This document shows, piece after piece, positions 15,834 through 21,118 of a stretch of DNA of 33,312 bases. Below the pieces are notes generated by a model, which saw only the letters and a program-made list of their open reading frames with translations, was not told the DNA's origin and did no database searches. Position numbers and translations under genes: made by a program. This DNA comes from Solobacterium sp. (GTDB lineage Bacteria > Bacillota_I > Bacilli_A > Erysipelotrichales > Erysipelotrichaceae). The stretch is taken from positions 1-33,312 of the forward strand of contig JAFOIT010000192.1 of NCBI GenBank assembly GCA_017420585.1, given 5' to 3'. Position 1 is the first letter of the stretch, and every line of letters begins with the position of its first letter.

Positions 15834-15861
15834 CCCGGCAGGGACAAGCCGCAAAAGAAAC

Positions 15862-15893
15862 AACCCGCATGGGAAATATCTCATGCGGGTTTT
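15862..15893. terminator. Terminator, probably bidirectional
   Basis: AACCCGCATG (15862-15871) pairs perfectly with CATGCGGGTT (15882-15891), followed by TTTT. On the reverse strand a T-rich stretch lies between it and tRNA-Ala and a short one follows it, so it may also end the tRNA transcript. Confidence 0.85.
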
Positions 15894-15906
15894 GAAAACA
15901 AAAAAA

Positions 15907-15982
15907 TGGTGGAGCTGACGAGACTCGAACTCGCTACCTCATCGCTGCCAGCGATGCGCTCTCCCAGGTGAGCTACAACCCC
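15907..15982 (-). tRNA. tRNA-Ala (anticodon GGC)
   Basis: A 76-base cloverleaf on the reverse strand with encoded CCA. The acceptor stem GGGGTTG/CAGCTCC has two G-T pairs, D stem GCTC/GAGC, anticodon stem CATCG/CGATG with loop CTGGCAG giving GGC, and T arm GCGAG-TTCGAGT-CTCGT. GGC reads GCC and GCT codons. The TGGC-type isoacceptor is often missing from A/T-rich Bacillota, and the codon GCC is very frequent here. Confidence 0.95.
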
Positions 15983-15993
15983 ATTGCACGATT

Positions 15994-16056
15994 ATTATAC
16001 ATGATCTTTTGAAAAAATCCATAGTAATATCACACAATATTGTGCTAATATATTAT
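15994..16056. promoter_or_regulatory. Divergent tRNA promoters with central palindrome
   Basis: Reverse TATAAT at 15994-15999 predicts a start about five bases before tRNA-Ala. Forward TATTAT at 16051-16056 predicts a start one base before tRNA-Arg. Between them CACAATATTGTG (16033-16044) is a perfect 12-base palindrome in the -35/-10 spacer of the tRNA-Arg promoter. Good -35 boxes are not seen for either. Confidence 0.5.
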
Positions 16057-16063
16057 GGCACAT

Positions 16064-16140
16064 GTGCTTGTAGCTCAGTTGGATAGAGTACTAGCCTCCG
16101 AAGCTAGGGGTCAGGAGTTCGAGTCTCCTCAAGCACGCCA
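16064..16140 (+). tRNA. tRNA-Arg (anticodon CCG)
   Basis: A 77-base cloverleaf with encoded CCA: acceptor GTGCTTG/CAAGCAC, D stem GCTC/GAGT, anticodon stem CTAGC/GCTAG with loop CTCCGAA giving CCG, and T arm AGGAG-TTCGAGT-CTCCT. It reads CGG, a codon used heavily in this window. Confidence 0.96.
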
Positions 16141-16151
16141 TCAGTCACAAC

Positions 16152-16178
16152 AGGGCGGCATGGATTGCCGCCTTTTTT
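16152..16178 (+). terminator. Terminator of tRNA-Arg
   Basis: GGCGGCA (16154-16160) pairs with TGCCGCC (16166-16172) around TGGAT, followed by six T. Confidence 0.9.
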
Positions 16179-16252
16179 GCTGGATAATGCACACCGTACC
16201 GTTATTCTTTTTTATTCTGCCGCGATTACCGAATAATGGGCCGCGGTTATCA

Positions 16253-16261
16253 TGCTATGAT
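16253..16261 (+). promoter_or_regulatory. Extended -10 promoter of the TIR gene (leaderless)
   Basis: TGCTATGAT is an extended -10 box ending at 16261. Seven bases on is 16268, the A of the TIR gene ATG, so the transcript is predicted to start on the start codon. The bases between (TTAGGAC) are too close to serve as a ribosome-binding site. Confidence 0.55.
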
Positions 16262-16267
16262 TAGGAC

Positions 16268-19200
16268 ATGGATTACCGCTACAAGGCATTCATATCCTAC
16301 CGTCATAATGACCGGGACACCGCCGTGGCAAAAGCGATCCAGCAGGGCCTGGAACGTTTTCATATTCCTGCATCAATCAGGGAAAAGTACGGTACGGAAC
16401 GGATCGGGCGTGTGTTCCGGGACCAGGAGGAACTGGAAATCACCAGTGACCTTTCAAAGAAGATCATGGATGCGCTGGATGATTCCGAGTACCTGGTCAT
16501 CATCTGCTCGCCGCATTACACGGAATCACGCTGGTGCCTGCTGGAGGCGGAAACATTCATCCGTACCCATGACAGGGATCATGTGCTGTGTGTGCTTTCG
16601 GAAGGAGAGCCGCCGGCTGTCTTTCCGGAAATCCTGCTGCAGGACGGGGCGGAACCGCTGGCCTGTGACTGGCGCATGGACTTCCGGGACGCGAACCGGA
16701 TGGAACTGCCCCGGCTGGCCTCGGCAATGATCGGCTGCACCTATGATGAACTGATCCTGCGGCAGGAGAAGTACCGCCGTAAAAGGCTGATCTCCGTTCT
16801 TTCGGCAGCGGCGGTTCTCGGCACGGCAGCCATCTCTTACCTGCTCTGGAGCAACGCAGCCATTGCCGGCAGCTACCGGCAGTCCCAGATCAGCGAGTCA
16901 AGGCTTCTGGCCAGCCAGTCCCTGGCCGCGGATGAGCGGGTGGACCGGCTTGCGGCATTGCAGTCAGCCCTGGCAGCCCTGCCGTCAGAAGACAGCAGCC
17001 GGCCGGTGACGGATGATGCTGTTTATGCGCTGAGCCGGGCAGTTTATGCCTATACGGTCCCGTATCATATCCGGGAAGACTGGCGGATTGACCTGGCAAA
17101 CGATATTGTTTCCTGGCAGACCAGCCCGGACGGCATGAACATCACGGTGCTGGACAATACCGGCGAATTCCATACCCTGCGGCTGGATTCCCGCCAACAC
17201 CTGGCTTCATTCCGTGCCGGGACAGGCCAGCCCTCCGAACCGGAGCGCGATCCGGCTGGCAATCTTATTACATATGCCGGCGGCAGTGTTTATTCCGTCA
17301 ATCCGGTGACAGGGAAGGAAAACTGGCATCTGCCGCTGAAATACCGGACACTCGGCATGACGGCTGTCAGTCCGGACGGGGCGTATATCGCCGCCGGTGA
17401 CTCTTTTGCCGTACAGGTCATGACCGCTGAGGGAAAACCGTATCTCAGCCTGCCGCTGCCCGAAGATACCGGCGGGTATATCACAGATCTCTGCTGGTCG
17501 GATGACGCACAATACATAGCCGTCCGGCTGCGGCTGGCCGGGCAGGGCTATCAGTTCGGCATCTTTGATTTCAGCACCTCGGAATTCTTCCTGACGGATA
17601 CAGTCAGCACACATACCGATTCCTTCTGTTTCGACCGGCACAATCGTCTGCTGGTACTGTCACACAATGATGAAAACAGTTCCTGGACGTATGGCGGAAC
17701 CGCGCATATCAATCAGGCTGAATACATTCTGCAGGCCTGGGACCGTGATCAGCTGTGCTTTGCGCAGCGCTTTGTCACGGCGGAGGAACCGGGATTCCCG
17801 CTGGTGCGGGCATACGGTGACGGTGCTGTGCTGGTCCTTGGCAGCCGGATCCATGTGCTGGACGGGCAGGGGAGCATAATCAGAACCCTGGAAGCCGGCG
17901 GTATTATTTCCGCATTGCCGGAAACCGGGGAATATTTCCATACTGTGACAGCCGACGGCCGCCGGGGTCTGATCATGGCGGACACCGGCACAGGATCCCT
18001 GCAGAAGTCATTCCCGGCCGGACATGACCGGGTTGAGATGATCACCGGAAAGGACCGGCAGACCCGGTATCTGATCCTGAAGGACGGCAATGTCTGCGTA
18101 TTCACCTATCTGCAGGATGATCACCTGGTTTACCTGCCCGCCGGACAGATGCGTGATGCGCCGCTCGGCGGTCGCAGCAATGCCGGACAGGCGGTCATCA
18201 GCACGACAGAGGGTCTGCTGTTCTGTGATGCAGAGACCCGCGGCGCACACCACCCTGCAGCAGCCGGAAATCACGTGTATCACATCCTGGATATAACCGG
18301 TGATTGTGTATCCGTTCTGGACATTGATGCCGGCAGCGGTTCCCTGCGGCTGCAGAACTATGACCATGCCGGGAAGCTGGTGCAGGAATGGCCGCTGTCC
18401 GTAAATGATGCCCTGACGGCCGACGGGCTGCTTGCGTCACCCCTGGACATCGCTGACAAAGTCTTTCTGGACGCGTATTATTCAGCGCCGGGGGCCGCAT
18501 GTGTGCAGAGCCGGACCCTGTATATCCATGATTATGACAACCCGCAGAAGATTGCCATGCTTAGCCTTGACACAGGTGAGGAGAAGATACTGGAGGTTTC
18601 CCTTCCCGGGACATTCAGCCTGACCGCCATGAACGGCTTCGACCGGGCGTCGGCCCTGACTGCTTCGCCAGACGGAGCATATCTGTATACCGTGATGACT
18701 GACCGGAACAGCACCAGGAAAGCTGTCCTGATTCATCTGCCGGATGGGGAAGTGCTGGAACTGCCTGGCACACCTGACGCGGCCGGAACCGCAGTCTTTT
18801 CCGGACAGCAGCTCGTATATGCCGCCGCAGACGGGTTGTATTGTACAGAAGGCACGGAGCTTTCTGATGTGGTATATTACACAGGGGAACCGGCACTGTC
18901 GTTTGCCGTCCGGGACGGCAGGCTCTTCGCGGTTTATCCCGACGGCACCCTGCAGGTATACAGCCAGGGTGAACGGATCCGCACCGTACAGCTGCCGTTC
19001 GGCACCGGGGCGGTGTACAGTGCTGCCGCGTTCCGCTGGGAGTTCACCGGTGACCGGCTTTGCCTGTACCGGGATGACAGTCTTGACATCATCTCCCTGG
19101 ATTCAGACAGCAGCCTGCCGGTGTATTCCGTACCCGGCGCAGTGCTGGACTATGATCCCGAACGGAAAGAACTGCTGTCATATGCATATGATCCGCAGAA

Positions 19201-19321
19201 AAATGACCTGTATTATTACCCGGGATTATTCCGGGAATACACGGTCAGTGAACTGATTGATATCGGCAATGCGCAGCTGGCCGGCTACAGTACGGCCGGA
19301 AAAGAAGGAGAACAGAAATGA
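16268..19321 (+). CDS. TIR-domain, membrane-anchored beta-propeller protein
   Basis: The 1017-residue protein begins with a TIR domain (1-about 165): YKAFISYRHND at the BB-loop strand, RVFRDQEEL (48-56), LVIICSPHYTESRWCLLEAE, where W89-C90-x-x-E93 matches the position of the catalytic Glu in NAD-cleaving TIR domains. One transmembrane helix follows (about 174-194), then a helical segment rich in LLASQSLAADERVDRLAALQSAL, then about 780 residues of repeated beta strands with TVSPDGAYIAAGD- and SPDGAYLYTVMTD-like motifs typical of WD40/YVTN propellers, probably two blades sets. The layout puts TIR in the cytoplasm and the propeller outside. Proteins of this shape occur in gut Bacillota; I know of no assigned function. 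A signalling or defence NADase switched on by an external signal is a hypothesis. Its TGA overlaps the xpt ATG by four bases. Confidence 0.85.
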   Translation: MDYRYKAFISYRHNDRDTAVAKAIQQGLERFHIPASIREKYGTERIGRVFRDQEELEITSDLSKKIMDALDDSEYLVIICSPHYTESRWCLLEAETFIRTHDRDHVLCVLSEGEPPAVFPEILLQDGAEPLACDWRMDFRDANRMELPRLASAMIGCTYDELILRQEKYRRKRLISVLSAAAVLGTAAISYLLWSNAAIAGSYRQSQISESRLLASQSLAADERVDRLAALQSALAALPSEDSSRPVTDDAVYALSRAVYAYTVPYHIREDWRIDLANDIVSWQTSPDGMNITVLDNTGEFHTLRLDSRQHLASFRAGTGQPSEPERDPAGNLITYAGGSVYSVNPVTGKENWHLPLKYRTLGMTAVSPDGAYIAAGDSFAVQVMTAEGKPYLSLPLPEDTGGYITDLCWSDDAQYIAVRLRLAGQGYQFGIFDFSTSEFFLTDTVSTHTDSFCFDRHNRLLVLSHNDENSSWTYGGTAHINQAEYILQAWDRDQLCFAQRFVTAEEPGFPLVRAYGDGAVLVLGSRIHVLDGQGSIIRTLEAGGIISALPETGEYFHTVTADGRRGLIMADTGTGSLQKSFPAGHDRVEMITGKDRQTRYLILKDGNVCVFTYLQDDHLVYLPAGQMRDAPLGGRSNAGQAVISTTEGLLFCDAETRGAHHPAAAGNHVYHILDITGDCVSVLDIDAGSGSLRLQNYDHAGKLVQEWPLSVNDALTADGLLASPLDIADKVFLDAYYSAPGAACVQSRTLYIHDYDNPQKIAMLSLDTGEEKILEVSLPGTFSLTAMNGFDRASALTASPDGAYLYTVMTDRNSTRKAVLIHLPDGEVLELPGTPDAAGTAVFSGQQLVYAAADGLYCTEGTELSDVVYYTGEPALSFAVRDGRLFAVYPDGTLQVYSQGERIRTVQLPFGTGAVYSAAAFRWEFTGDRLCLYRDDSLDIISLDSDSSLPVYSVPGAVLDYDPERKELLSYAYDPQKNDLYYYPGLFREYTVSELIDIGNAQLAGYSTAGKEGEQK

Positions 19322-19890
19322 AAGAACTGCAGGAAAGAATCTTAAAGGAAGGCAGAATTCTGCCGGGAAGTATTCTGAAAGTGGACAGCTTTCTGAATCA
19401 TCAGATCGATATGGAACTCATGGATCATATCGGCGCGTATTTTCATGAGAAATTCAGGGATGCCGGCATTACCCGGGTGCTGACAATTGAAGCTTCCGGC
19501 ATTCCCATGGCCTGCATGACAGCTTATCATTTCCATGTCCCGGTTGTCTTTGCCAAGAAGGCCCGGGCCGCCAACCTCGGGCCGGATGTATATAAATCCA
19601 CGGTGCATTCCTACACCTATGGCAGGGATTACCAGATCGCGGTGTCCAAGGCGTACCTGCATGCCGGTGACACCGTGCTGATCATCGATGATTTCCTGGC
19701 CAACGGGCAGGCAGTGCACGGACTGATGGATCTGTGTGAACAGGCCGGAGCCCAAGTCGGCGGGATCGGCATCTGTATTGAGAAGGGTTTCCAGCCCGGC
19801 GGTGATGAACTGCGCAGCCGCGGCATCCGGGTCGAAAGCCTGGCCATCATCGATGCCATGGATGATCATCACATCGAACTGAGAAAGTAA
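19318..19890 (+). CDS. xpt: Xanthine phosphoribosyltransferase
   Basis: Xpt salvages xanthine with PRPP to make XMP. The 190-residue protein has the family N-terminus (LKEGRILPGSILKVDSFLNHQID), the TIEASGIP segment, and the PRPP loop VLIIDDFLANGQA (120-132). Length matches Bacillus Xpt. In many Bacillota xpt sits behind a guanine riboswitch with a xanthine permease; here neither is present, and the start codon overlaps the stop of the TIR gene (ATGA) with GGAG inside the TIR coding end. Expression therefore appears coupled to the TIR protein, an unusual pairing. Confidence 0.95.
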   Translation: MKELQERILKEGRILPGSILKVDSFLNHQIDMELMDHIGAYFHEKFRDAGITRVLTIEASGIPMACMTAYHFHVPVVFAKKARAANLGPDVYKSTVHSYTYGRDYQIAVSKAYLHAGDTVLIIDDFLANGQAVHGLMDLCEQAGAQVGGIGICIEKGFQPGGDELRSRGIRVESLAIIDAMDDHHIELRK

Positions 19891-19900
19891 TAGAAAAAGA

Positions 19901-19930
19901 CAGTTTCCGGAATACGGAAACTGCCTTTTT

Positions 19931-19931
<1 letters not shown>
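19901..19931. terminator. Bidirectional terminator between xpt and tgt
   Basis: CAGTTTCCG (19901-19909) pairs perfectly with CGGAAACTG (19915-19923). T runs follow on the forward strand (19926-19931) and, after two bases, on the reverse strand. Confidence 0.92.

Positions 19932-21118
<1,187 letters not shown>

Follow-up and report, generated by a model that had tools for sequence, protein, structure and literature searches.

The window, by which we mean the whole stretch of 33,312 nucleotides analyzed here, carries at 16268..19321 (+ strand) a gene for a TIR protein with one membrane helix and two beta-propellers, and other members of its family repeatedly adjoin genes for membrane proteins with a ryanodine-receptor (RyR) domain or for DHH/DHHA1 phosphoesterases. 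On balance, we favor a reading in which the protein is a membrane TIR receptor-enzyme and the product it makes from NAD acts on RyR-domain channels, with the window copy working in trans and the adjoining xpt gene a bystander.

The TIR-propeller protein

The ORF encodes 1017 amino acids and overlaps the start of xpt by the nucleotides ATGA (19318..19321, +), in agreement with the first-pass annotation. That annotation had also proposed an order of TIR domain, one membrane helix and one propeller; the TIR domain and the helix stand, whereas the propellers number two. Residues 1-155 (16268..16732, +) form the predicted cytoplasmic TIR domain. Residues 8-116 match Pfam TIR_2 with 47.1 bits (cut-off 28, E 4e-12), and strands and helices alternate as in a TIR fold in an AlphaFold2 model with a mean pLDDT of 82, computed from an input of 15 family sequences. 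The earlier view of the domain as a likely enzyme is supported by motif and model: the putative catalytic glutamate E93 (codon 16544..16546, +) lies in S87-x-W89-xxx-E93, within SxWCxxE, at the start of a modelled helix spanning residues 88-100. E93 is identical in 85 of the 85 aligned family TIRs, and S87, W89, R51 and D52 are likewise invariant wherever aligned.

The predicted membrane helix, residues about 174-194 (16787..16849, +), follows the sequence KYRRKR, suggesting an inside N-terminus and an outside C-terminus, and falls within a helix of residues 159-223 in the model. A conserved helical stalk follows at residues 199-262 (16862..17053, +), and pairwise identity averages 44% across residues 198-262. 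The first propeller, residues 265-616 (17060..18115, +), resembles WD40-type propellers in structure comparison (Z 28.3, rmsd 3.5, 318 residues aligned). The second, residues about 617-990 (18116..19237, +), was recognised from the strand pattern of the model and is the fastest-evolving part of the protein. Mean pairwise identity in the family alignment is 52% for the TIR domains and 17-18% for the propellers. The gene is under purifying selection, strongest on the TIR domain: dN/dS is 0.09 for the TIR, 0.18 for the first propeller and 0.30 for the second; the flanking genes xpt and tgt give 0.09 and 0.02. A conserved TIR joined to diverged propellers is the pattern expected of a constrained enzyme below a changing sensor.

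Partner genes in the family and the proposed signal

Among 84,980 species genomes scanned, at least 555 relatives were found, most of them in Lachnospiraceae, Clostridiales and Erysipelotrichaceae of the rumen and gut. The 80 wider loci discussed below are the best 80 of these, picked by similarity to the window query. Most of the genomes are metagenome-assembled and fragmented, genes outside the window were called with a simple codon-score caller, and E-values across genomes are per genome. Co-occurrence was tested in another set, 200 genomes drawn from a single family, and a further sample of 392 genomes spanned the phylum.

A gene for an RyR-domain protein lies directly upstream of the TIR gene in G000:C137, G019:C57, G006:C146, G007:C23, G021:C28, L101 and L105, with spacings from a 17-nt overlap to a 19-nt gap. 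It is convergent with the TIR gene in G008:C78 and divergent from it in two Butyrivibrio loci. One subtype of these proteins, marked by a TVGYGD filter, is predicted to be a 2TM K+ channel that has tandem RCK-like domains and, at its C-terminus, a ryanodine-receptor domain; it clears the Pfam cut-offs for Ion_trans_2 (E about 1e-12) and RyR (E about 1e-6). Plain sequence searches match its residues 432-478 to ryanodine receptors (E 2e-10) and its residues 15-93 to K+ channels (KvAP/KcsA). The channel model (pLDDT 87) is similar to Slo1 and GsuK along most of the chain; its pore resembles KcsA, and its C-terminal side the RyR repeat structure Bt-hRyR_12. In all copies with the K+ filter the spacing of H440, W443, H465 and D482 is identical to that of H75, W78, H100 and D117 of RyDEP, residues which contact 3'cADPR (PMC13232231). 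The longer subtype of about 620 amino acids has no K+ filter and spaces its ligand residues differently.

Mapped onto the TIR tree, RyR adjacency requires at least 4 changes, and thus arose or was lost repeatedly; the link recurs. RyR and TIR genes occur together in 8 of the 200 genomes, against 3.5 expected (p 0.011), and form four close pairs. Proteins of the partner type are rare, being found in 3 of the 392 genomes of the phylum-wide sample, so that a TIR/RyR module is not general in Bacillota. Two tandem RyR genes, the form of about 620 amino acids followed by the K+-channel form, were also seen in G008 (L198:9563-13005), L200 and L199, and tandem RyR genes of undistinguished subtype at G126:C15:176947-180079. 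These tandem pairs span two bacterial families and occur with or without an adjoining TIR gene.

The second recurrent neighbor is a DHH/DHHA1 phosphoesterase of about 500 amino acids, related to NrnA, Mn-pyrophosphatase and cyclic-dinucleotide phosphodiesterases. It adjoins the TIR gene in 45 of the 80 wider loci, with 31 convergent arrangements, 12 codirectional upstream and 2 downstream. DHH and TIR genes occur together in 16 of the 200 genomes (4.3 expected), close together in 14, and the co-occurrence support is thus weaker for RyR with TIR than for DHH with TIR. About half of the DHH genomes in this sample lack the TIR family, so the DHH protein has other contexts too. The DHH proteins (L109:9228-10775 and 44 similar ones) share a conserved C-terminal extension of about 200 amino acids, often ending in a PGDY motif, which is covered by no Pfam model.

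The window copy lies in a clade of 16 tree rows (support 99), four of which adjoin RyR genes, and in its nearest relative outside the clade, L101, the RyR gene stands 2 bp upstream of the TIR gene. Next to the window gene itself we found neither an RyR-domain nor a DHH gene; its neighbors are xpt, tgt and tRNAs. A search of its own genome (G000) for a DHH homologue of the 500-residue type found none, and the window copy has no such pair. That genome does hold, on contig C137, a second TIR-propeller gene directly after the C-terminus of an RyR-channel; the channel gene is cut by the contig end, leaving its pore unseen, and is whole in G019 and G006. Contig C70 of the same genome (L202, G000:C70:1-12000) encodes an RyR membrane protein, a protein of about 870 amino acids, a 282-aa TIR protein and a TIR-TPR protein of about 680 amino acids. 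This cluster, which we regard as a second TIR/RyR system, is conserved in L201 and L209 and in part in L205 and L206.

These features suggest how such a protein might work. The two fast-evolving propellers would sense something at the cell surface, and the single membrane helix and helical stalk would carry the signal inward, where the intact TIR domain would cleave NAD+ and probably yield an ADP-ribose-type signal. This could gate RyR-domain proteins, the 2TM K+ channels among them, and the DHH phosphoesterases could remove or read it. Signalling by the window copy could reach, in trans, the RyR proteins whose genes lie at other places in its genome. Genomic linkage and residue spacing argue for the combination of TIR and RyR, and distant relatives suggest that the RyR domain may bind the TIR product. 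We also put forward, more tentatively, a specific form of this reading: a bacterial counterpart of cADPR-ryanodine receptor signalling, in which the propellers would activate the TIR, its ADP-ribose-type product would open the RyR K+ channel, the DHH enzyme would end or read the signal in other lineages, and the window copy would act in trans.

The main competitor to a signaling role is a stand-alone abortive-infection NADase, whose propellers would respond to a phage or to an event at the surface, and whose TIR would deplete NAD+ with no signal partner. An intact TIR with an invariant E93 would serve such an enzyme equally, and for many members of the family no partner is recognised in the vicinity (46 of the 103 TIR tree rows show neither RyR nor DHH). 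The recurring RyR and DHH neighbors, however, point to signalling by a nucleotide more than to simple NAD+ depletion, and none of the defence models in PADLOC or NCBIfam gives a clear match; we judge this reading rather unlikely. More doubtful still is a role as an adhesin at the surface or a scaffold of the envelope, in which the TIR would be a non-catalytic oligomerisation or adaptor domain. Large propellers outside the cell with no ligand assigned are what such a protein would offer, but the invariant TIR residues described above, and purifying selection that is strongest on the TIR itself, argue against it.

The xpt neighbor and the two-gene transcript

Functional linkage of the TIR protein to its operon partner was put forward as a hypothesis in the first-pass annotation, and it fails. 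The partner, at 19318..19890 (+), is a genuine xpt, passing the NCBIfam models NF006671 (275 bits, cut-off 177) and TIGR01744 (246.8 bits, cut-off 164.45). Among 60 related genomes, 18 have the TIR family and 57 have xpt-like proteins, and a full xpt adjoins the TIR gene only in G000 and G019. G006 is probably a third case: its TIR gene ends one contig, and the tail of xpt opens another, before tgt. The pair is thus confined to three near-identical species. The count of adjacent xpt genes among homologues, set beforehand as the refuting test, gave none nearby in the 80 wider loci, the best 80 of at least 555 relatives. Other TIR relatives in the genus adjoin genes for a ribosomal protein, MATE, LicD, ROK, an M3 peptidase, ABC and others.

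In other species the xpt-tgt locus is present without the TIR gene. The order in G018 (L087) is tgt, xpt, M32 carboxypeptidase, tRNA-Ala, HAD hydrolase and tRNA-Arg; in G009 (L081) it is tRNA-Arg, HAD hydrolase, two more genes, M32 and xpt, with tgt further on. M32 stands upstream of xpt in seven loci of the genus, and in three of them (L084, L087, L092) overlaps it by the same 4-nt ATGA-type junction, so the TIR gene most likely took a pre-existing slot upstream of xpt that M32 holds in relatives. We conclude that xpt is a housekeeping bystander which shares only a transcript with the TIR gene, and that their adjacency is a positional accident. The idea that they form a functional pair, with the TIR consuming NAD+ and the PRPP-using xpt restoring nucleotides or handling a signal, draws on the ATGA overlap, the common transcript and the retention of the arrangement in G019 and probably G006, but is very improbable, as the pair is missing from all other genus members and the 80 wider loci, the xpt-tgt locus and its 4-nt overlap pre-exist with the M32 peptidase, and xanthine phosphoribosyltransferase is not known to use nicotinamide. 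An ATGA overlap is by itself no proof of a functional pair.

The boundaries of the transcript agree with the earlier view that xpt is the only other gene in the operon. A terminator-like hairpin (16152..16174, +) between tRNA-Arg and the TIR gene and a bidirectional one (19894..19930) between xpt and tgt fit a two-gene unit bounded on both sides. The leaderless start proposed before is likewise sound: the extended -10, TGC-TATGAT (16253..16261, +), ends 6 nt before the ATG and is preserved in the sister species G006. Among 551 gene starts of the same genus, a gap of 6 nt from -10 to start is the sharpest peak, with 16 genes against 0-6 at gaps of 0-5, so leaderless initiation is a habit of the genus and not peculiar to the TIR gene. 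Leaderless genes whose extended -10 stops 6-8 nt short of the start codon occur throughout the genus, including those at 16268, 21121 and 26704 of the window and others in same-genus loci.

Two tRNA genes, tRNA-Ala(ggc) at 15907..15982 (-) and tRNA-Arg(ccg) at 16064..16140 (+), precede the unit, and tgt (19931..21061, -), a syntenic neighbor of xpt in relatives, follows it. The tRNA-Arg gene is a landmark of the xpt locus in relatives too (L081, L087). Relative to xpt, the two tRNAs (window 15907-19890, compared with L087 and L081) are oriented opposite to those of G018, which indicates that the window's lineage underwent a rearrangement of the slot upstream of xpt. Upstream, neither a purine riboswitch nor any other RNA element was found; Rfam matches only the two tRNAs. 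We considered integration at a tRNA and rejected it: 15850-16330 holds no direct repeats, and those across 16020-20000 are short and weak.

Comparison with known systems

PADLOC gives only weak TIR-level matches, and the RyR and DHH partners match none of its models, so assignment to a known defence system was set aside. The window TIR scores 16.7 bits with ThsB_TIR, below the Pfam cut-off of 21.2, and reaches no PADLOC ThsB model at E 0.1. Neither form of the ThsA effector, SIR2-SLOG or TM-macro, was found beside it. A family of TIR proteins with partners recalls Thoeris, in which a TIR enzyme (ThsB) stands beside a nucleotide-binding effector (ThsA), in one class a membrane-anchored macro-domain protein (PMC11204291). 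Here, however, the TIR is itself predicted to be membrane-anchored, with propellers outside, and its family is partnered by RyR-domain K+ channels or DHH proteins, not by a SIR2-SLOG or TM-macro ThsA.

The partner channels keep H, W, H and D at the spacing of phage RyDEP and RyR R12 domains (PF02026; PMC13232231), but RyDEP is a phage anti-defence protein, whereas here the RyR domain is fused to a TIR-adjacent K+ channel. With GsuK, MthK and Slo these channels share a 2TM pore, TVGYGD and tandem RCK-like Rossmann domains, and differ in the added C-terminal ryanodine-receptor domain and the TIR linkage. Our literature search, which covered work other than the Burroughs et al. 2015 survey, found no account of a TIR beside an RyR K+ channel or a DHH enzyme. 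That survey reportedly treats TIR, SLOG and RyR networks, and may already record some of the linkage.

The window gene is a member without a local partner, and its value is that it led to the family. Should the link to RyR channels prove real, it would bring together three subjects that are mostly studied separately: bacterial TIR immunity signals, RyR domains binding cADPR-type nucleotides, and nucleotide-gated K+ channels. The long-disputed effect of cADPR on ryanodine-receptor domains could then be tested in a small bacterial model. The protein resembles Toll-like receptors in combining an outside repeat sensor, one membrane helix and an inside TIR, but it is TIR-first and has propellers in place of leucine-rich repeats, and common descent of the architecture is unsupported. 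Such a TIR receptor would read the exterior of the cell, in contrast to the intracellular phage sensing of Thoeris.
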